DNA from: a virus
Strand: one strand, 5' to 3'
IMG/VR virus record: IMGVR_UViG_3300021356_000188
Coordinates: 1-22,042 of that record
DNA length: 22,042 nt
Shown piece by piece: positions 4,987 through 16,926 of the stretch; the stretch's first letter is position 1, and every line of letters begins with the position of its first letter. The notes under the pieces were generated by a model that was given only the letters and a program-made list of their open reading frames with translations, made no database searches and had not been told where the DNA came from. Both the position numbers and the translations under genes were made by a program.

Positions 4987-6645
4987 TTAAAATTCCAGTA
5001 CAAACTTAAATTCCTCACGCGATAGGTCTGTTCTAGCTAGTGGGAAGAAGTTTTCCATAAAGTAAACTTCACCAGTTTTCTGCATATAGTTTGATAGCGT
5101 AACATTAGAGGCTACCGGACTATTTATATTGATTGTTTGGCCAGTTTCATTTCTAAATGGTAAAGTTAAATCTAATGGTACGTCGTTTGTTGTTGCGTTG
5201 TCGTGTAATGTTGAACCTGTTGAAGGATTATTTGAATATGGTCCTAGGTATTCAGCAAGATAAACTGTATTTGCATTTTCATCAATTTCGTGCACCTTTG
5301 CGCTAAATACTGTTTCGTTATTACTATCAACTTGGATAACAGTACTATTAGCAGATAGTTTATTGTATTCATCTGTTACTACTGCTATTCTATTATCAAA
5401 TACTAAATCTGTAAATCCTGTGTCAAAGTCGGGTGATCGCACAATACCTACACCACCGTAAGTATTTACATCGCCGATTTTTGTATTATCTTCTGCTGTA
5501 ATATATCCATACATCGAAAAGTGTTTACATTTTAATTCGTCAATCATGCTAAATCCATGACCACCTGGTGGTGATAAACGAGGTCGTATCAATGCACGAA
5601 TATCTGTAGTTGTATTATCTTCAGGTAAAAATTGATTTGCGCCTGGGTCTACAATTCTGCCAGTTGCATTTGTATATCCATTACCTTCATCTAGTACAGT
5701 AACGGTCGTAATTCTATTGTTAACAATATTTGGTATTGCTACTGCTCCAGTACCATCACCAATGATTTCTAATTTTGGAAGTATTTTAAAGTTAGCATTA
5801 CTATCAACACCTGCTAAATCTGGAGTAGCTACTCCAGTTAAATATTCTGCACCAACTCTAATTTCTGCATTACCTGTTAATTCGTTGTACCTATAATAGG
5901 TAATCTCAAATAAGCGTGAAACTCCATTAGCAGGGTTCGTTGTATACATGAATTGGCCAGTAAAGTAATTTGTTACTGGACTCCAATCCGTAAACGGTGT
6001 TACGATAATTACACCAGAGTTATATGGTGTTGCAACAAGTCCACCTCTGTGTTCTTCATATCCAAAATTATCTCCTGGATTTTCAACAACTATATCCGAA
6101 ACTGTGCTAAGTGTTGGTGGTACTGGATTATTTGGTACTGGTGTTGGTACAATTGGAACATAACCAATTGCATTATAAGCATCAAATTCTATTTGAGATA
6201 TAACATACATATATTTCCAAACGTATCCATCAGCTGTAATATAAATTTGATTTGTATTTGTTACATCATAATTTGGCGGTGTGGATGCTGTTCCGCCATT
6301 ATTGTTATTTAAACATTTATAAACTCTATAATCACCAGTATCGTTATCGTTTGGACCTACGACTGCATAAAATCTTTGGTCTGTTAAATTAACATTATCA
6401 TCATACTCGACATATGTTTGACCAACCTGCCAAGGATAATATTTAACCATAAAATGGATGTCTGTATTTAGAATTTTTTTACCAAAAAGCGTTCGTTCTA
6501 AAAATCCAATTTTAGAAGCTTGTGCATCTTCTGGTGAGAACGTATCAATGCCAGAAACGAAAACATAGTAATCATTATTAGCAAGGTCATCTATGAATAA
6601 CCTTGTGACATCACTTTTAAAACTATTACTTAATATTTCTGCCAT
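4987..6645 (-). CDS. gp8: Baseplate wedge protein gp8-like
   Basis: This 552-residue protein carries landmarks shared with T4 gp8. YRVYKC (residues 106-111) precedes an Asn/Gly/Pro loop (NNNNGGTASTPP), and then comes DGYVWKYMYVI (139-149), matching the DGYVWEYLFEI segment I recall from T4. In T4, gp8 forms a dimer in each wedge and bridges gp7 and gp10. The protein is longer than T4 gp8 (334 residues). The extra length lies in a middle beta-rich part and a C-terminal part ending in GEVYFMENFFPL and EEFKFVLEF, a tail I associate with marine phage homologues. A late promoter TATAAATA sits 35 bases upstream of the ATG. The ribosome site is weak (GAG only). It is separated from the gp7-like gene by two inserted genes, unlike the T4 order. 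Confidence 0.8.
   Translation of the reverse strand: MAEILSNSFKSDVTRLFIDDLANNDYYVFVSGIDTFSPEDAQASKIGFLERTLFGKKILNTDIHFMVKYYPWQVGQTYVEYDDNVNLTDQRFYAVVGPNDNDTGDYRVYKCLNNNNGGTASTPPNYDVTNTNQIYITADGYVWKYMYVISQIEFDAYNAIGYVPIVPTPVPNNPVPPTLSTVSDIVVENPGDNFGYEEHRGGLVATPYNSGVIIVTPFTDWSPVTNYFTGQFMYTTNPANGVSRLFEITYYRYNELTGNAEIRVGAEYLTGVATPDLAGVDSNANFKILPKLEIIGDGTGAVAIPNIVNNRITTVTVLDEGNGYTNATGRIVDPGANQFLPEDNTTTDIRALIRPRLSPPGGHGFSMIDELKCKHFSMYGYITAEDNTKIGDVNTYGGVGIVRSPDFDTGFTDLVFDNRIAVVTDEYNKLSANSTVIQVDSNNETVFSAKVHEIDENANTVYLAEYLGPYSNNPSTGSTLHDNATTNDVPLDLTLPFRNETGQTININSPVASNVTLSNYMQKTGEVYFMENFFPLARTDLSREEFKFVLEF
5121..5128 (-). promoter_or_regulatory. Possible intragenic T4-type late promoter
   Basis: A perfect TATAAATA reads on the minus strand inside the 3' part of the gp8-like gene, about 148 bases upstream of the giant structural gene. 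The match is exact. In an AT-rich coding region it could arise by chance, so function is uncertain. Confidence 0.3.
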
Positions 6646-6695: not shown

Positions 6696-9023
6696 CTACG
6701 TTCCAACTTTTATCTTAGGTCTTGGATATAGTTTACCAGAAGCAGGTCGTCTACCATTTAGAGTACCTCTTGGTTGTCCTATAAATTTACCAGCAGGGCC
6801 TTCTAAAAGAGTGTAATCCATATTCATTCTATATGGTGGTGTTCCTGCTTTAATACTTATGTCTTGTCCGCCGTTTGCAGCTCGTCCTTGAGTAATTCTC
6901 CAAACTGTTCCTGCACTGTAAAGTCTATCTGAATTAAAGTTACCAGCTGAAGGTAAGTTTTCAAAATCTACTAACTCTTCGTCTGCAATAATGTCTAGTG
7001 ACTTTCTAACTGCTAATTCTTTAAATTTATCTTGAGATGGATAAGTAAATCTTTGACTAAAAAATTCATCAATTATACAAGCACCAACTCCTGCAGCTTG
7101 AGGTGCTGCACAACTTGTTCCGCTAAAATAACCATATTTACCATCATTAAAAGAATATATTGGGTTTGCAGTCCATGTATTTGCACCCATTCCGCATAAA
7201 TCAATTCCTTGTCCTCTAGAACTATAATCGTCCATTAAAGGATTTGCTACACTATGTTGTGATGCGCCTATTGTAAATGTTCCTGGTCTTCCTTCACTAT
7301 AGCTTCGTGCTGGCCATCTTGTTGTAGCACTAGAAAATGAATTACCGGGTTGTAAATCGAATGCATCGTAACCTTGCGAGGTGTCTCGTTCTATCTCAAT
7401 TAAACCAGACCCTGCAGCAATTACTACTGATGTATTCCATGATGGATGGTCTGAACGAGAAAAAATATTTCCATAATTTCCTGCACTCTTAAATGAGTAT
7501 ATAGAACCGTCTGTAGTGAAACTATCCCAGATAGGACCTAAAGGATTAAATGTTGTTGCAAACTGTGTACCGTAACGTCCGCCAAATCCCCATACAACAC
7601 ACCATTTATCTGTACTATCATTTGGGTCATTAATAACTTTTGGATAAATTCCATTGTCAATAAAAACACTTAAGTCAGTTCCCCAACTACTACCTGGTCT
7701 ATTAACTGTTGTTGCATTATTATCAGCATCATAATATGTTAAAGATTGAATATCATTAATGTATACTGCTTGAGTATTTTCTGCATTAGTATATCCATAA
7801 GCACCAGTAACAATTGTTGCGTTACGAACTCCTGTGACTGGATTAACTGCTTTAGTTTTATGCCATTGTAATATTGCGTTATATCCTTCTGCAAGTCCGT
7901 CTTCTGTATAAATGACTCTAAGGCTTGATGCTTTGGCCCATCCGTTAAAAGTTCCACCTGCTGCACTTAATACGCCTATAGCATGAGATGAAAAACAATC
8001 TAAATTATCTGTTATTTGTTGTTGAGAAACTAAAGCACTATCATAGTCTTCCCAATCCATTCGAACAAATCTACTTCTTTTATATTCAACACGAAGTAGA
8101 CCACTCATGTTGCTATGATTTGAACATATGTATCTTATATTTGTGCCAGGAATTCCTACTAATAATGACGTAGCTTGTTCGTATGTCATTGCAGAAGTCG
8201 GTTCAAAAACAATAACGTTTCCACCAGCCGCTCCTGTATACCCACCGTTATTTGTAAGTGCACTTGATATATCCATTCCATCAGTAGCTTGGATTTCAAA
8301 TGGATGCATTGAACCTTCGCCGTTTGTAATTCTTAATGTATCACCAGGATACATAGTAATAGCTGGGTCGGATGCATTTGAATGTGTCGTTGCTCTATCT
8401 GTTCCACTAATAACCCAATTGTTTGTACCGTCAGCAGTGGCTGTAAGCTCTATTGTAATAGCTTCGCCTAAAAGTTTTGAAGCTTCAGACCCTAACATAA
8501 AATCAGGATGTGTTGGATATTCGTCATATAAAGGACTTCCAGTTCCAGCTTCCATTGCAACTATATCAACAAATTGTCCTGCAAAGTTTTGTTTAATATC
8601 TGCAGATACTCTTCTGTCTTCGTTTTCAGGTGAACTATTAAAGTATCCTACATTGCCAGAACTTGATGTAATATTATCATCGTTCATGTTACCAGTAAAA
8701 TAAAACTGTGTTCCACCAAAATCTGCACCATTGAGATTTTGATAACCAGATGGCAAAGACCCTGTAATCAATTCTGCACTTCTTTCTAATACTGGAGGAT
8801 TTGAATAATATAAAGTTGGTTCTACTTGTATAGGAAGTTCTATACCAATTACTTTTTCGCTTTCATTGAGTGTATTAACTTCATCTTCAGTTAAGAGCAT
8901 AGAAATAATACTATCAATATTACTCAAATTACTTTTGACAGTCATTCCTGCAGCTTCGTTAGCTAAAAATTCAGGTTCATCAGTACCTGGCTGAAGCATT
9001 ACGATGTAATTAGTTTTTTCCAT
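6696..9023 (-). CDS. Subtilisin-like (S8) serine protease with an inserted cupredoxin-like domain
   Basis: This protein has 775 residues. Residues 1-70 (YIVMLQPGTDEPEF, then LTEDEVNTL and VIGIELPIQVEP) resemble an I9-type propeptide, the intramolecular chaperone of subtilases. The protease core shows the catalytic His segment SSHAIGVLSAAGG (H347), the oxyanion-hole Asn in SAGN (N516) and the nucleophile in FSGTSCAAPQAAG (S637). The first catalytic segment, VDIVAMEAGTG followed by HPDF (172-175), has Glu158 where Asp is normal. Between HPDF and the His segment an extra domain (about 180-312) carries HPFEI (H240) and CSNHSNM (C300, H303, M306), a type-1 copper-site pattern. No signal peptide is visible. 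It directly follows the fibre-like gene with a 3-base gap, so the two are probably co-expressed late and may both be virion parts. It could mature a tail protein, cut host surface protein, or only bind. Protease family is confident; role is inferred. Confidence 0.85.
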   Translation of the reverse strand: MEKTNYIVMLQPGTDEPEFLANEAAGMTVKSNLSNIDSIISMLLTEDEVNTLNESEKVIGIELPIQVEPTLYYSNPPVLERSAELITGSLPSGYQNLNGADFGGTQFYFTGNMNDDNITSSSGNVGYFNSSPENEDRRVSADIKQNFAGQFVDIVAMEAGTGSPLYDEYPTHPDFMLGSEASKLLGEAITIELTATADGTNNWVISGTDRATTHSNASDPAITMYPGDTLRITNGEGSMHPFEIQATDGMDISSALTNNGGYTGAAGGNVIVFEPTSAMTYEQATSLLVGIPGTNIRYICSNHSNMSGLLRVEYKRSRFVRMDWEDYDSALVSQQQITDNLDCFSSHAIGVLSAAGGTFNGWAKASSLRVIYTEDGLAEGYNAILQWHKTKAVNPVTGVRNATIVTGAYGYTNAENTQAVYINDIQSLTYYDADNNATTVNRPGSSWGTDLSVFIDNGIYPKVINDPNDSTDKWCVVWGFGGRYGTQFATTFNPLGPIWDSFTTDGSIYSFKSAGNYGNIFSRSDHPSWNTSVVIAAGSGLIEIERDTSQGYDAFDLQPGNSFSSATTRWPARSYSEGRPGTFTIGASQHSVANPLMDDYSSRGQGIDLCGMGANTWTANPIYSFNDGKYGYFSGTSCAAPQAAGVGACIIDEFFSQRFTYPSQDKFKELAVRKSLDIIADEELVDFENLPSAGNFNSDRLYSAGTVWRITQGRAANGGQDISIKAGTPPYRMNMDYTLLEGPAGKFIGQPRGTLNGRRPASGKLYPRPKIKVGT
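8088..8486 (-). other. Cupredoxin-like domain embedded in the subtilase
   Basis: Residues about 180-312 contain YPGDTLRI, then HPFEI (H240), then YICSNHSNMSG (C300, H303, M306). The one-His-early, Cys-x2-His-x2-Met-late arrangement is that of plastocyanin-type blue copper domains, although classic ones have one or two more residues before Met. It sits between the first (Asp/Glu) and second (His) catalytic segments of the protease, so it looks like an insertion into a surface loop. Copper binding is inferred. Confidence 0.65.
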
Positions 9024-9026
9024 TTA

Positions 9027-10676
9027 TTATGACTCTAATTTAAGTACTGTAATTGTAACATCCATATCTGTTGAACTACCTGTGTTATTTGTAATAGTCA
9101 TAGGTAATTCTGTTTCGTTGTTGTCTAGCCATCCGTAAATAGCAGGAGTAACTTTAAATGTAGTATTTGGTGAAGTCGCAACAAATTCTGCAATAACACC
9201 TGCACCTTCTGGTGGGTCATCTGCTGCAGACCTGTTTAAGTCAGCTGACCTTGATGCAGTATCTGAATATATTCTTATACGACATTCTTTTTCAGCAACT
9301 ATTTCGTAAATTGCAAATGATTTACCACAATTTGTAAATTCTAAATAGTCTAAGTTAGCAAATGAAGATGTTGTCTGTGTTTCTGTTACACGAGAAAGGC
9401 TTCCACCTCCACCACTTGATGATGGGTCAGAAATAACAATATCACCAATCATCGATGAGTGAGATGTACAAATATAATGGTATGTTCCGCTTATATTTCC
9501 AGGAACTTTCCAGTAAAGAGTACCTTCGTATTTACCTTGAGCATTAGAACCAGTAGATTTAGTACCATCATTTCCGTAATGAACAAGACCTGTATTATAA
9601 GCAGTTGTTCCATCAGGTTGTCTGATTTCAAATGGGTGACTTGAAGTAGCACCATTTAATTCAAAACCTATTGTTTGTCCAGCTTGAACATAAACTGTTG
9701 GATTATCACCAGGTAGTTGGTCCATTGTGTATTTTGAACTATCAGGTCCAACAACATAGTAAGTTGAAACAGCAGTGGCTGCCATATCGTGAAGGTCAAG
9801 GTCAGCAGTATTAACTTCTGTTAATCCTGCAAGAGTAGATGAACCACCCCCTCCACCAGATGCACTTAATACACCGTTACTAGCTGATAAATTAGTACCT
9901 GCAATTGCTGCAACAAAATCTACAATTGATTCTTTCTTAGAAGCATTAGAATCATTAGCATCAATAAATCCAAAACTATCTGCAGCTACGTCTATTGCAC
10001 CAGCTGATAAACTGTTAAGGTCGGTGCCACCACCGCCTCCACCACCAGATGCGTTAATTGTAATTTCATCATTGTTTGCATCAGTTGTAATTGTAACATT
10101 GGAACCAGCTACAAAAGTAATACTATCTTCAGCTCCATCAGCTACGATATCACTTTGACCTGCAACGGAGATTGTTTTAAATGCTTCATTAACATTACCA
10201 CCTCCACCGCCGCCAGTTGCTTGTTGAACCCAAGTATATGTACCATCAGCATTTGTTTTTAATACATAATCAGCTGTTTCTGAATTTGTAATATTACCAG
10301 AATAAACATAAGACGCAAGAGGGTCTGTGTAATTAGTAATTGCTCCTTCTGAAGTATCAGCAAGAAGTCTTCTCCAAGAACCGTGAGCATAATACAGTGA
10401 GCCAGTATCGTGAGCATGGCCAATAGCTCCGTGATATGTACTTGCGTCAACTGCATCTAATAAAACTTTTGTGTCATATAAGAATGAAACTTTATGAGGT
10501 TCACCCGAAAGGTCTAAATTTCCGTTAGAATCGAATATGTTGGTAAGCGTTGTTGCATTACCATAACTGAAATATATTTCGTTAAAATTGTCGTTTACTT
10601 TATCGAATGCATTACGTAACGGGTCACCTGACCCATCATTCGCTGATGCTCCGATATTAATTGTTTGCTTGGCCAC
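9027..10676 (-). CDS. Gly-rich tail fibre-like structural protein with cupredoxin-like domain
   Basis: This 549-residue protein starts at GTG, supported by AAGGAG (10685-10690) 8 bases upstream. The N-terminal module (TINIGASANDGSGDPLR, then AFDKVNDNFNEIY) is one I recognise as recurrent in marine phage fibre and structural proteins. Next come a beta module (FKTISVAGQSDIVAD to NDEITINA, about 166-209), a linker domain, a cupredoxin-like domain (about 315-415) and a beta-rich C-terminal domain (about 426-549). Runs of 4-7 glycines separate the modules at residues 155-160, 211-217, 274-278 and 422-425. The cupredoxin-like part has HPFEIR (H347) and YICTSHSSMIG (C403, H406, M409). The gene lies between the gp7-like wedge gene and the subtilase and is probably expressed late. 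A baseplate-attached short fibre or decoration protein fits best; the exact role is unknown. Confidence 0.7.
   Translation of the reverse strand: MAKQTINIGASANDGSGDPLRNAFDKVNDNFNEIYFSYGNATTLTNIFDSNGNLDLSGEPHKVSFLYDTKVLLDAVDASTYHGAIGHAHDTGSLYYAHGSWRRLLADTSEGAITNYTDPLASYVYSGNITNSETADYVLKTNADGTYTWVQQATGGGGGGNVNEAFKTISVAGQSDIVADGAEDSITFVAGSNVTITTDANNDEITINASGGGGGGGTDLNSLSAGAIDVAADSFGFIDANDSNASKKESIVDFVAAIAGTNLSASNGVLSASGGGGGSSTLAGLTEVNTADLDLHDMAATAVSTYYVVGPDSSKYTMDQLPGDNPTVYVQAGQTIGFELNGATSSHPFEIRQPDGTTAYNTGLVHYGNDGTKSTGSNAQGKYEGTLYWKVPGNISGTYHYICTSHSSMIGDIVISDPSSSGGGGSLSRVTETQTTSSFANLDYLEFTNCGKSFAIYEIVAEKECRIRIYSDTASRSADLNRSAADDPPEGAGVIAEFVATSPNTTFKVTPAIYGWLDNNETELPMTITNNTGSSTDMDVTITVLKLES
9402..9413 (-). 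repeat. Poly-glycine linker 4 (4 Gly)
   Basis: Four consecutive GGN codons encode Gly422-425, between the cupredoxin-like domain and the C-terminal beta domain. Confidence 0.85.
9417..9734 (-). other. Cupredoxin-like domain in the fibre-like protein
   Basis: Residues about 315-420 show VYVQAGQTIGFEL, then HPFEIR (H347), and YHYICTSHSSMIGDIVI (C403, H406, M409) about 55 residues later. Spacing and residues match the domain in the neighbouring subtilase, including HPFEI and YIC-x2-H-S-x-M. All four type-1 copper ligand positions are present. Copper binding has not been shown. Confidence 0.65.
9843..9857 (-). repeat. Poly-glycine linker 3 (5 Gly)
   Basis: Five consecutive GGN codons encode Gly274-278, after the linker domain and before the cupredoxin-containing part of the fibre-like protein. 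Confidence 0.85.
10026..10046 (-). repeat. Poly-glycine linker 2 (7 Gly)
   Basis: Seven consecutive GGN codons encode Gly211-217, ending the VAGQSDIVAD-type beta module. Confidence 0.85.
10197..10214 (-). repeat. Poly-glycine linker 1 (6 Gly)
   Basis: Six consecutive GGN codons encode Gly155-160, dividing the N-terminal virion-attachment-like part from the first beta module. Confidence 0.85.
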
Positions 10677-10703: not shown

Positions 10704-10711
10704 TATTTATT
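10704..10711 (-). promoter_or_regulatory. Probable T4-type late promoter (AATAAATA variant) for the fibre/subtilase pair
   Basis: The minus strand reads TAATAAATA, one base off the TATAAATA octamer, at the end of the gp7-like gene and 27 bases before the GTG start of the fibre-like gene. It is followed by a strong ribosome site (AAGGAG). Position supports function; the mismatch lowers confidence. Confidence 0.45.
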
Positions 10712-13001
10712 ATGCTAATACATCATCAACTGTAACTAGAGTACTATCAACACTAAAGTTTGTAACATCTGCAGATAATGCATCTGTATTTGCTGAATCT
10801 AATGGTGTACCCGTGCCGTCGTCATTGAATAACCTAATAAATCTTGGTTTTGTGCTTCCTGGTATATCGGCTTTGTAAATAAAATCGCCGAACATTTTTG
10901 CACCAGCTAAATGCACATTTTCTTTTAGTAATTTTTCGTATTGACTTTTATCTAGAGTTGATTTAATTTGATATGAATACTCTTGATAGAAATCACTGTC
11001 TTGTATTCTCATTCCTGAGTTATAGTAAGTATCAATTGCTGCACTGTTTGCAGCTTGAGTTGTATAACCATTAATGTGAGATGAGTAATCTTTCCAGAAA
11101 CCTTTGTTTTTACCTTGTTGTGTTGCTTCAATTGTACCAGATGCTAATACAAGGTTTGCATCGAGTGGGTCTCGTAATGTTCCGTCGTCACCGTTAACAT
11201 AGGAAAATCCTGAGTTGGTAATTGCAACTTCGTTAATATAACCCAATTCATATTCAACTCGTGCATTAATAATTGCATTATCACCATATACACGACTTGA
11301 ATAATCTATGCCAACACCCGCAACTGAGAACGAATCATTATTTTCTCTTATAATATTATCTAAACCATTAAATCCTTCCCAGGAATTTGGTAATATATAA
11401 AGTACACCTTGCGTTGTATCTACTGAAGTAACCTGAGCAGTTTTATTTGTATTTGCTTCTGTTATTGTTTCGCCAGCGTTAAATACTACAGATTCTGTTG
11501 GTGTTGTTAATCTAACAATTTGGCTACGCTTATTAAAATTAGAAATTGTATCATCTTTTGCTCTTGCAAATACATCAAAACGATAATCAGAACCTGGATT
11601 AACATTTTCAAATACTTTTATACTACCGATTTCTATACCTGAAGTATCAAATGCATTATCTAATGGTGTACTAAGATTTACTGGACTTACTGAACCTGAC
11701 ATCGGAAAAGTTGCTTCGTAATCTGGAGCATTAATCGATGTTGATAAATGTGGTAAAATAACGTCAGTAATAAGATTAACAGTTTCTACATCTGTAATAA
11801 CTGCATAAACATCTGTATTAGCATCAGGTGGGTTACCTTCTGGATATAACTGAGCTGGAAATGTAGCAGGTGATGAATTATTATAATCAGAAACACCTTG
11901 TTGTATTCCGAGGTTTAACAAATCAATATTTGGACTACGATCTAATGTGCTAATTGCTGAGCCGTCAAATTGTCCAGCAGTCATTTTAACACCAATATTA
12001 TATTGGTTTTGTCCTATAACAATACCTTCGTTACCACTTGTATCTCTTAATCTTTCGTATGGTTCAAATTGTACTTGATTTGACGAATCAGTATTAATTG
12101 CCTGATTTGAAACTAAAAGGCTTGTATTTGCAACTGTATAACCATATCCGCCATTTACATAATCATATAATACGACAGCTCCAGCTGATGTAGTAACATC
12201 TGTAACTATACCTTCTCCACCAACTCCTCTGTCTGCAGCTATAAGAACCTGATCGCCTATTTGCTTATTTGGTTCTCTTGCTTTTGTTGAGTCAACGTTA
12301 AATCCACTTAATGAGCCACCAACAGTACCAAACTCTACTTGTTTTCCGCTGATGTTTGTATAAATCTTATCGTACTTAACAAATACTCCATTAACATTAT
12401 CAATGTAAATAACAGGTGTGTATATTCCGTTAATTAAAATTGAATTGATTTTGCTTACTGAAGCTTTTGCTTGTGAAACTGAACCTGTAATAACACGAGA
12501 AATTAAATCTGCATAAGTGTATTGATTACCTTCAGTATCTGTAAATAAATTATCGTTAGGAAGCATTTGTAAGAAGTTGCCTTCTTTCCATTCAGAGTTT
12601 GAAACTTTCAACATTCTGTTAGAAGGATAAACTACTTCAATATCAAATTCTTTATAGAATGTTGCAAAGAATAACTCAATACCAGCCTTAGTACCTTTTC
12701 TTCTATAAAGGTCTAATACATTCTTAACAAGGAATGGTACAATACTTTCTTTTAATTCGAGGTCAACTAAATATTTGTTTTTGAAGAAAATAAGTAAAGA
12801 TTTAATTGTTGTATCAATATCTTTATATTCAAAAAATCTTCGTGATACATAAGTCGATTGATTAGTAGTAGTTTCTAACCATTTATAATAATCACGAGCT
12901 AATTGAACCAGTTCAGGTCCATCTTCACGATAGACAGCAGGGAATTGCTGATTAATAAAAAAGCTTATACTTTTTTCTATCTGTGAATAATCTTCAGCCA
13001 T
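10710..13001 (-). CDS. gp7: Baseplate wedge protein, gp7/gpI-like
   Basis: This protein has 763 residues. The N-terminal 130 residues (FPAVYREDGPELVQLARDYY, RRFFEYKDIDTT, FFKNKYL, DLYRRKGTKAGIELFF) follow the pattern of tail protein I domains. In phage P2, gpI plays the part of the T4 gp7 wedge core. The middle is beta-rich. Near the C-terminus (about 634-713) lie GFWKDYSSHINGY, DSDFYQEYSYQIKS and LAGAKMFGDF, a block I recall from marine T4-like baseplate proteins. In T4, gp7 forms a heterotrimer with two gp6 copies and holds gp8, gp10 and gp53. The gene sits right after gp6, as in T4, which supports the call, but T4 gp7 is longer (1032 residues). Ribosome site AGGAAA lies 8 bases before the ATG, with a 14-base gap from gp6. 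Confidence 0.65.
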   Translation of the reverse strand: MAEDYSQIEKSISFFINQQFPAVYREDGPELVQLARDYYKWLETTTNQSTYVSRRFFEYKDIDTTIKSLLIFFKNKYLVDLELKESIVPFLVKNVLDLYRRKGTKAGIELFFATFYKEFDIEVVYPSNRMLKVSNSEWKEGNFLQMLPNDNLFTDTEGNQYTYADLISRVITGSVSQAKASVSKINSILINGIYTPVIYIDNVNGVFVKYDKIYTNISGKQVEFGTVGGSLSGFNVDSTKAREPNKQIGDQVLIAADRGVGGEGIVTDVTTSAGAVVLYDYVNGGYGYTVANTSLLVSNQAINTDSSNQVQFEPYERLRDTSGNEGIVIGQNQYNIGVKMTAGQFDGSAISTLDRSPNIDLLNLGIQQGVSDYNNSSPATFPAQLYPEGNPPDANTDVYAVITDVETVNLITDVILPHLSTSINAPDYEATFPMSGSVSPVNLSTPLDNAFDTSGIEIGSIKVFENVNPGSDYRFDVFARAKDDTISNFNKRSQIVRLTTPTESVVFNAGETITEANTNKTAQVTSVDTTQGVLYILPNSWEGFNGLDNIIRENNDSFSVAGVGIDYSSRVYGDNAIINARVEYELGYINEVAITNSGFSYVNGDDGTLRDPLDANLVLASGTIEATQQGKNKGFWKDYSSHINGYTTQAANSAAIDTYYNSGMRIQDSDFYQEYSYQIKSTLDKSQYEKLLKENVHLAGAKMFGDFIYKADIPGSTKPRFIRLFNDDGTGTPLDSANTDALSADVTNFSVDSTLVTVDDVLA

Positions 13002-14897: not shown

Positions 14898-15314
14898 TTA
14901 TCTTATCCTTTCTAATATTAAATCAAGTGATATTGGTCTTTCAACATTCTTGATATAAAAACGTATATTTACACTAACTTTATTGTCGTCGTATATACTT
15001 GAAGCAGTTATGTCTATAATTTCTGCTCTTGGTTCGTAAATTTTAATAGTATCTGCACACCTGCTTTCTATAACTTTTAAAGTACCTGGAGTAATGTTTT
15101 CAAATAATAAAGCTCTAATACCTCCACCAATATAAGGTTGCATTAACCTTTCGCCTGGGTCAGTTAAAATTAAATTCTTAATGCTTTGTTTAACTGCGTC
15201 TTCATCTTTTAAAAGAGCTATATCTTTTGATATAGGACTAATCCTAAGGTCTTTATGAAAGTCGCTGTATAAATTTGGCTTTCTATTTATTGGTGTTTTT
15301 AAACTAATTGTCAT
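14898..15314 (-). CDS. gp25: Baseplate wedge protein gp25 (gpW/gp25 family)
   Basis: At 138 residues it is near the length of T4 gp25 (132). The family core is visible: VKQSIKNLILTDPGERLMQP followed by YIGGGIRALLFE (61-72), and the conserved EPR triad in IYEPRAEI (92-99). The fold is shared with tailed-phage gpW and type VI secretion TssE proteins, where it nucleates sheath assembly at the baseplate. Its start overlaps the stop of the peptidase gene (ATGA at 15311-15314), implying translational coupling. In T4, gene 25 lies in another cluster; here it is next to gene 6. Confidence 0.93.
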   Translation of the reverse strand: MTISLKTPINRKPNLYSDFHKDLRISPISKDIALLKDEDAVKQSIKNLILTDPGERLMQPYIGGGIRALLFENITPGTLKVIESRCADTIKIYEPRAEIIDITASSIYDDNKVSVNIRFYIKNVERPISLDLILERIR

Positions 15315-15631
15315 CTTATTATTTCTCTAACATCTAAATGAATATGATTATCATATATAACTACACCTAAGAATCCAGATTTTTTAGCATTTTTAATAAA
15401 AACTGGAATCCAATCATTACCTTCTAAGTTATTGTATATGTTTAAAACCTCATCTATTTTCTTAAATGAGTCGTCCATTTTAATATCTATAACAAGTCCA
15501 CTAAGGTGAGGGTTATCATTTTCCTTTTTTAAGGTATTTTGATTATAATCTGGACTTACCCAGCCATTTGTTATAGTTATTGTACTACCATATATTTTTT
15601 GTAATCTTTGAAGATATACTTTAACATCCAA
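15311..15631 (-). CDS. Small M15-type zinc peptidase (D-Ala-D-Ala carboxypeptidase/endopeptidase-like)
   Basis: This 106-residue protein has the M15 zinc signature HLSGLVID (H42 to D49, the HxxGxxxD pattern) and the C-terminal pair in NHIHLDVR (H96, H98, D100), preceded by GFLGVVIYD. M15 enzymes cut peptide bonds in peptidoglycan. No membrane segment or signal peptide is seen. Its place between spike/hub genes and gp25 suggests a tail-tip enzyme that opens the wall during DNA entry, replacing the lysozyme domain absent from the gp5-like protein. The start is doubtful: the first available codon is TTG at 15631 with no clear ribosome site, while the frame stays open upstream for 15 codons (through GLPAYTHLDLD, which looks native) with no standard start codon. 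An atypical start or translational coupling to the upstream gene is possible. Confidence 0.75.
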   Translation of the reverse strand: MDVKVYLQRLQKIYGSTITITNGWVSPDYNQNTLKKENDNPHLSGLVIDIKMDDSFKKIDEVLNIYNNLEGNDWIPVFIKNAKKSGFLGVVIYDNHIHLDVREIIR

Positions 15632-15657: not shown

Positions 15658-16926
15658 CTACACCTTTTCTTCATCGAATACATCACCTTCAAGTTTAAAA
15701 GTGCTATCAGAACCTTTTATTACACTCATGCACTCAGGCAAGTTTTTATAATCTTCAGCTTTAATTTCTTCAACATCAATTTTTTCATAACCAGGAATTG
15801 TTTGTCCAGCACTTCCGTCACTATTCCATATACTATTTAGGCTATTTATGTCTTGCTGCTTCTGTTCTTTTGAAAATCTTATTGCTCCATTACGAATTGC
15901 AGTGGAAGTATTTTGATTTCCAATAGCTTGTAATCTCTTAATAACTCTTTGATATCTATTTCCGTAGTCATCTAATGGATTCTTAATTTCATTAACAAGT
16001 GCTTCAACATTACTTGCAAGAGCACAAAAACGTGCAACCAAGAATTGCATTGTTGCTAAATCCATTTGCTCAAATAAACCAAAGGCGTAATCCATAAACC
16101 CTTTGAGTTTATTTTTCATTTTCTCTTGTTGTTCTTTTGTAAGCTCATTACACATACGCTCTTTACGAGTCATTATATACTTTGTATGAGATTTGTCAAT
16201 ACCTACAACTAAATCTCCTATTTGGTCCATAATATCAAAGTTGTTAATTGCTGCCATTATTTTTTCATAAATTTTAACTACAGAATCTATAATTTTTTCT
16301 TGGATTTCTTTTACTAATTTTTTAACAACTTCTTCTTCCAATACTTCAAGTGGATTCATACCTTCGTACTTACCAAGAAGTGCTTGAAATTTAGCATATG
16401 CTGCAGCAGCATCTTGGATTATTCCATCTATTTCACCAATTAAATCATAGAAAGAATCTATAGTATTAAACAAATTATTCATACTATTACAAAAACCGCC
16501 TAAAATACTTTCGTAAATATCACCTTGGTAATATCTGTCTAAATTAGAAAGTAAAACATCTGGTGTTTGATTAATAATAACGTTTGGCGAATAATTATAC
16601 GATTCCATAAAATCAGCCATCTCAAGCTGCGTAACATTACCACGATTCCATCTATTATCTAAAGATGGATAATTTGAAGAGTCATAACTTCGAAGCGAAC
16701 CATTAATATAATCAACACTTTTACCAAAGTCATTACCAAATTTATTAATCATATTTTTAATTGGATTATTGTTTGTTTCTGCTACAATATTATCAGCAAG
16801 CTCTTGAGCAAAAACATCAATCTGGTTTAATGTATATGAGCCATCAGCGTTTACTGTAGGGCCAGGGTTAATTCTTTGCTGATTAAGATATGTTTGACTT
16901 CGTCTGTCTACGCAACTACTAGCCAT
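15658..16926 (-). CDS. Helical protein of unknown function in the hub cluster
   Basis: I do not recognise a family for this 422-residue protein. It is mostly helical: residues about 140-315 have long amphipathic stretches rich in Lys/Glu/Leu/Ile (for example LEVLEEEVVKKLVKEIQEKI, 193-212), suggesting coiled coils or a helical bundle. The N-terminal 100 residues are polar and Asn-rich; the C-terminus (from about 340) is charged. No transmembrane segment, signal peptide or catalytic motif is seen. Start ATG overlaps the gp5-like stop by one base (TAATG), so translation is coupled. Between the spike and the M15 peptidase, it is probably a virion or tail-assembly protein, perhaps a hub partner or chaperone; this is position-based only. 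Confidence 0.75.
   Translation of the reverse strand: MASSCVDRRSQTYLNQQRINPGPTVNADGSYTLNQIDVFAQELADNIVAETNNNPIKNMINKFGNDFGKSVDYINGSLRSYDSSNYPSLDNRWNRGNVTQLEMADFMESYNYSPNVIINQTPDVLLSNLDRYYQGDIYESILGGFCNSMNNLFNTIDSFYDLIGEIDGIIQDAAAAYAKFQALLGKYEGMNPLEVLEEEVVKKLVKEIQEKIIDSVVKIYEKIMAAINNFDIMDQIGDLVVGIDKSHTKYIMTRKERMCNELTKEQQEKMKNKLKGFMDYAFGLFEQMDLATMQFLVARFCALASNVEALVNEIKNPLDDYGNRYQRVIKRLQAIGNQNTSTAIRNGAIRFSKEQKQQDINSLNSIWNSDGSAGQTIPGYEKIDVEEIKAEDYKNLPECMSVIKGSDSTFKLEGDVFDEEKV

Follow-up and report, generated by a model that had tools for sequence, protein, structure and literature searches.

A C-terminal adaptor domain ties a gp9-type gene to a subtilase-family gene in phage tail modules that carry a movable cupredoxin-like module

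What ties together two neighbouring phage tail genes whose products both carry a domain resembling the blue copper proteins? The pair lies in a 22 kb IMG/VR fragment of a marine virus (22,042 nt; hereafter the window) whose minus strand encodes a T4-like tail module; from upstream to downstream the order is tail proteins, gp5-like, gp25, gp6, gp7-like, adaptor, subtilase, gp8-like and a large gp10/VrlC-like protein truncated by the contig end. Both reading frames of the pair were confirmed (Table 1), with 3 nt between the adaptor stop codon and the subtilase start. The closest cultured gp6 proteins, at 39% identity to that of the window, belong to Sinorhizobium phages of the phiM12 group; the 61 pattern matches to the subtilase in genome contigs include no true bacterial or host relative, and therefore give no clue to the host. 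Elsewhere, at 15311-15631 and 15658-16926, the window has an M15-like peptidase and its upstream neighbour as separate genes, the two being fused in most relatives into one protein of ~515-547 aa.

The initial annotation read the pair as a two-gene insert between genes 7 and 8. For the adaptor this does not hold: cyanophages S-SSM5 and S-RIM8 show the order gp7-gp9-x-gp8, and a gp9 between gp7 and gp8 is therefore ordinary cyanophage gene order and no insert. The sole unusual occupant of the interval is the subtilase. An empty site, with gp7 adjoining gp8 and neither gene between, is found in Sinorhizobium phage phiM12 and in one IMG/VR locus (L143).

Table 1. Features of the adaptor-subtilase pair and its flanking genes in the window (residue numbers refer to the respective protein).
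Feature	Coordinates	Strand	Evidence
gp8-like baseplate wedge protein, downstream neighbour, survey bait	4987..6645	-	phrog_438
Subtilase (S8-family) P0001, 775 aa	6696..9023	-	Peptidase_S8, phrog_15006, Foldseek
Catalytic Ser637 (FSGTSCAAP)	7113..7115	-	64/64 relatives
Oxyanion-hole Asn516	7476..7478	-	64/64 relatives
Catalytic His347	7983..7985	-	64/64 relatives
Subtilase cupredoxin-like insert, residues 188-314; ligands His240, Cys300, His303, Met306	8082..8462	-	Hold-out HMM, alignment
Glu158 at catalytic-Asp position	8550..8552	-	Glu 55/64, Asp 9/64 relatives
I9-like propeptide, residues 1-66	8826..9023	-	Model, secondary structure beta-alpha-beta-beta-alpha-beta
gp9-type tail/baseplate adaptor P0002, 549 aa, GTG start	9027..10676	-	T4_gp9_10_N, phrog_677
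CT domain, residues 425-549, phrog_15343-like	9030..9404	-	phrog_15343 match; next-gene and reciprocal surveys
Adaptor cupredoxin-like domain, residues 297-418; ligands His347, Cys403, His406, Met409	9423..9788	-	Model, Foldseek, HMM
gp9/10-like N-terminal baseplate-docking segment, residues 1-50	10527..10676	-	Pfam match residues 3-43
gp7-like baseplate wedge protein, upstream neighbour	10710..13001	-	phrog_17744 baseplate wedge subunit

The upstream product, initially described as a Gly-rich fibre-like protein, is instead a gp9-type adaptor, matching T4_gp9_10_N (E 3e-6; 27.8 bits against a cut-off of 25) and phrog_677, 'baseplate wedge tail fiber protein connector' (E 4e-45). Its gp9/10-like N-terminus is followed by Gly-rich linkers, the cupredoxin-like domain and a phrog_15343-like segment of ~125 residues that ends the protein, which we call CT. 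The likeness to T4 gp9, the long tail fibre socket, lies in the N-terminal segment and the baseplate gene neighbourhood, from which a comparable adaptor role is presumed; the C-terminal part in the window consists of linkers, a cupredoxin and CT, which differs in sequence from the fibre-binding domain, and the next gene encodes a subtilase rather than a fibre. Similar in part are the gp9 connectors of S-SSM5, S-RIM8 and P-TIM68, which have a C-terminal cupredoxin and lie between gp7-like and gp8 genes, but which have no CT match and are followed by a YHYH protein (the next gene in S-SSM5 and S-RIM8) or by gp8. In loci L086 (11234-15394) and L169 (9259-13911) the gene that follows a cyanophage gp9 without a CT match encodes a YHYH-domain protein.

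The downstream product scores above the curated cut-off for Peptidase_S8 (PF00082; 34.5 bits against 21.8) and matches phrog_15006 (E 9e-53), and a Foldseek search with its model returns EpiP and subtilisins, with the pseudoprotease CspC also among the structural matches. Most of its first 66 residues are modelled with pLDDT ~82-90 and their secondary structure fits an I9 propeptide, although the Inhibitor_I9 profile (PF05922) gives weak matches in 2 of 22 relatives (best E 0.05). It shares the fold, a putative propeptide and the Ser-His-Asn residues with S8A subtilases such as EpiP and subtilisin BPN', and differs from them in the Glu at the catalytic Asp, the cupredoxin insert and its structural-gene context. 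With His347 and Ser637 kept and Asp replaced by Glu158, the triad is not the canonical Asp-His-Ser, and we therefore speak of a subtilase-family protein rather than a proven S8 peptidase. The propeptide and the conserved Ser, His and oxyanion Asn nevertheless suggest a self-maturing enzyme.

We searched IMG/VR with CT as bait, using a profile built from a closer sequence set, as the 14-sequence CT alignment was too diverse to scan with. Among the best 80 loci, whose proportions are not population frequencies and whose within-clade counts are not independent, CT is at the protein C-terminus in 80/80, and the gene that follows it (n = 78) is a subtilase by HMM in 57, a member of an alternative family in 19 and a match to neither profile in 2, one of these two being Peptidase_S8 by Pfam; some of the survey sets share sequences with the profiles used to score them. 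The next gene starts -11 to +7 nt from the CT gene, with a single exception at 34, and of the 60 subtilases among the 440 ORFs in these loci 57 lie directly behind CT. Pfam searches with ten of the next-gene proteins gave Peptidase_S8 for all nine taken as proteases and no match for the tenth, from the alternative family. The members of that family include proteins of 767 aa (L085), 776 aa (L167), 929 aa (L170) and 427 aa (L166), sometimes with a cupredoxin, and the two members tested had no Pfam match. In two loci (L204, L213) a second subtilase gene lies directly behind the CT-linked one.

The reciprocal search gives the same picture. Among the best 80 loci recovered with the subtilase as bait, CT lies immediately upstream in all those with enough upstream sequence (72/72 loci; 51/51 clusters at 90% identity), reaching the stop codon of its gene, with a gap of ≤24 nt in all but one. 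Presence of CT also separates the gp9-type genes: a subtilase is next in 99 against 4 of those with CT and in 3 against 41 of those without, counts drawn from related sequences, for which a p-value overstates the contrast. CT itself sits behind varied N-termini (gp9_10_N, Mtd_N and others), and its link to the protease is therefore independent of the docking part. The pair is tied by the adaptor's C-terminal CT domain and not by the cupredoxin; the initial view that the two genes belong together near the tail is thus borne out by the CT surveys, whereas the shared cupredoxin offered as the reason is contradicted by its distribution and history, below. Linkage of this kind could also arise through translational coupling or co-inheritance as a cassette, without any binding between CT and the protease. 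Alternatively, the subtilase might serve tail assembly rather than attack on the host, cleaving the adaptor or itself in the role of a maturation enzyme or autoproteolytic chaperone. We consider this unlikely, though still a live rival: an I9-like propeptide implies self-processing and the coupling to a single structural partner is tight, but CT reaches precisely to the adaptor stop codon, is kept in every case and shows no evident cleavage linker, and gp9-type genes that lack CT mostly have no neighbouring subtilase.

Because the catalytic Asp is replaced by Glu, proteolysis by the window's clade may be weak or absent. A stronger form of this argument makes the clade's subtilase a pseudo-enzyme that serves as a binding scaffold at the tail tip, with the cupredoxin in its binding face. 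The prevalence of Glu among relatives (Table 1), the occurrence of the cupredoxin in two different core loops as well as at the C-terminus, and the place of CspC, beside active subtilases, among the structural matches all lend it something, yet the Ser, His and oxyanion Asn are conserved in 64/64 relatives, which is unexpected in a dead enzyme, and most of the wider CT-linked subtilase family keeps Asp together with the other catalytic residues. In our judgement it has a rather small chance of being right, but it too stays a live rival.

The claim that both products carry a cupredoxin-type domain with all four type-1 ligands proved correct. A profile built without any subtilase copy finds the subtilase domain (E 1.9e-12), and one built without any gp9 copy finds the adaptor domain (E 5.2e-13). 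An alignment of 19 diverse copies leaves just seven columns invariant, namely the four ligands and one Gly, one Pro and one Tyr. In the PDB the cupredoxin profile matches plastocyanin, amicyanin and Cu nitrite reductase, and the top Foldseek matches of the adaptor model are the blue copper proteins rusticyanin, amicyanin and plastocyanin. Given the hold-out profiles, the invariant ligands and these PDB and Foldseek matches, the resemblance is not due to chance. Structure modelling supports a Greek-key beta-barrel for the adaptor copy (pLDDT ~86-92) and leaves the subtilase copy at low confidence (pLDDT ~47-60), so that for the latter the fold is supported by its sequence only. As the curated cut-off of the cupredoxin family in Pfam (PF00127) is not reached (14.7 bits for the adaptor against 21.2; copies in relatives reach E 7e-5 to Copper-bind), we write 'cupredoxin-like'. 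Both window copies have the ligand-loop spacing C-x2-H-x2-M, which is that of amicyanin. With amicyanin and plastocyanin they share the four type-1 ligands, and they differ in being fused into phage tail proteins, in their other loops, and in that copper binding is only predicted. A 356-aa protein (L055) has a ligand-less cupredoxin-like copy at residues 21-162 beside one that keeps its ligands.

The initial annotation proposed a survey of the pairing, and in it the two cupredoxins are distributed independently. The loci found with gp8, a bait that selects for neither gene, were combined with those adaptor-search loci that contain gp8 (each search giving its best 80 loci), and clusters at 90% gp8 identity were taken as lineages. 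In these 29 lineages the domain is present in both proteins in 7, in gp9 only in 5, in the subtilase only in 12 and in neither in 5, with no association between the two (odds ratio 0.58, Fisher p = 0.69); one mixed cluster (L005/L010) includes one 'both' and one 'subtilase only' state. In three of the five 'neither' lineages a cupredoxin is found at the end of gp7 instead, so that, counting gp7 with gp9 and the subtilase, 27/29 lineages have the domain and two lack it in all three genes. Loci L038, L149, L151 and L156 have the cupredoxin as the gp7 C-terminus rather than in gp9 or the subtilase. Mapped on the gp8 tree, the states require a minimum of 7 changes for the gp9 copy and of 4 for the subtilase copy, with no independent pair in which both changed in the same direction; the power of this comparison is low. 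Identity between the window's two copies is 21%, the adaptor copy groups with other gp9 copies (support 100/100), and a sister relationship between the two is rejected (AU p = 0.039, a modest value on long branches), which gives no support to the idea that the domain was duplicated recently in this genome.

Within the subtilase, alignment with insert-free relatives places the window's insert between Glu158 and His347, at a site (A) shared with L045 and L140; most relatives have it in a later loop (site B), and in S-H9-1, S-CAM4 and ACG-2014i it is C-terminal. The S-CAM1 subtilase (L084, residues 196-306) carries a circularly permuted copy, in which the Cys-His-Met strand comes first: once the insert is rotated, its profile score rises from 65 to ~92 bits, whereas a normal copy scores best unrotated. 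The cupredoxin is thus a separate, movable accessory module, found at three subtilase sites and in three proteins with its four ligands kept, and because the ligands are preserved while the carrier protein changes, copper binding by the domain is probably used. Another group of phages, with small genes (L056-L083), encodes proteins of ~216 aa that consist of a gp9-like N-terminus and a cupredoxin, without CT and without a subtilase.

Could copper itself then be the means of entry? Copper-loaded cupredoxins at the baseplate rim might, by analogy, engage metal or cupredoxin receptors in the host outer membrane as a Trojan horse, for which iron in phage tail fibres is a discussed, if loose, precedent (PMC11705849). 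The invariant ligands and the presence of the domain in gp7, gp9 or the subtilase of nearly all lineages speak for such a role and the two lineages lacking it in all three genes speak against, and we give it a slim chance. That the shared cupredoxin makes both proteins act jointly on copper or on one target, as the conservation of the four ligands in both might suggest, is extremely improbable and is rejected as the link between the genes by the lineage counts, the gp8 tree and the non-sister window copies.

Our preferred reading, towards which we lean slightly, is that CT mounts the downstream protease on the tail and that the cupredoxin is an accessory. The pair would then be one case of a widespread tail cassette, consisting of a CT-ended adaptor followed by a subtilase-family protease or, sometimes, another tip protein. 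In T4, the N-terminal domain of gp9 binds gp7 and its C-terminal domain carries the long tail fibre (PMC3004832). By analogy, the N-terminus of the window's adaptor would dock on the baseplate as gp9 does on gp7, and CT would hold the protease as the C-terminal domain of gp9 holds the fibre. A self-maturing protease at the baseplate rim could then clip host-surface proteins during adsorption; its target would most likely be a protein on the host surface. The cupredoxin would be a metal-binding module gained independently by rim proteins (adaptor, protease and gp7) that probably tunes target recognition and does not couple adaptor to protease. The cyanophages S-CAM1, S-H9-1, S-CAM4 and ACG-2014i have a comparable arrangement, in which a CT-ended gene is followed after 1 nt by a cupredoxin-bearing subtilase (annotated 'proximal tail fiber' and 'subtilisin-like serine protease'; phrog_15006, phrog_9158), but there the pair lies in the fibre region, the upstream gene is not a gp9, and the cupredoxin of the subtilase is C-terminal or, in S-CAM1, permuted. 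A general system, in which adaptors of various kinds use CT to mount, at the tail periphery, a serine protease that activates itself and cuts host-surface proteins, with a roaming copper-binding accessory, is plausible, though we would stop short of calling it probable.

Most enzymes known from phage tails are hydrolases of polysaccharide or peptidoglycan. The open-access literature searched has no paper on phage tail cupredoxins or on this adaptor-subtilase pairing. If the proposed reading is true, the protease cassette, present in many phage contigs and marked by CT, would represent a common and so far unnamed adsorption strategy, a proteolytic counterpart of the polysaccharide-degrading tailspikes. 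The cupredoxin, moving across three sites and three proteins and once permuted while keeping its four ligands, clearly exemplifies a metal-binding module that is mobile among virion genes.
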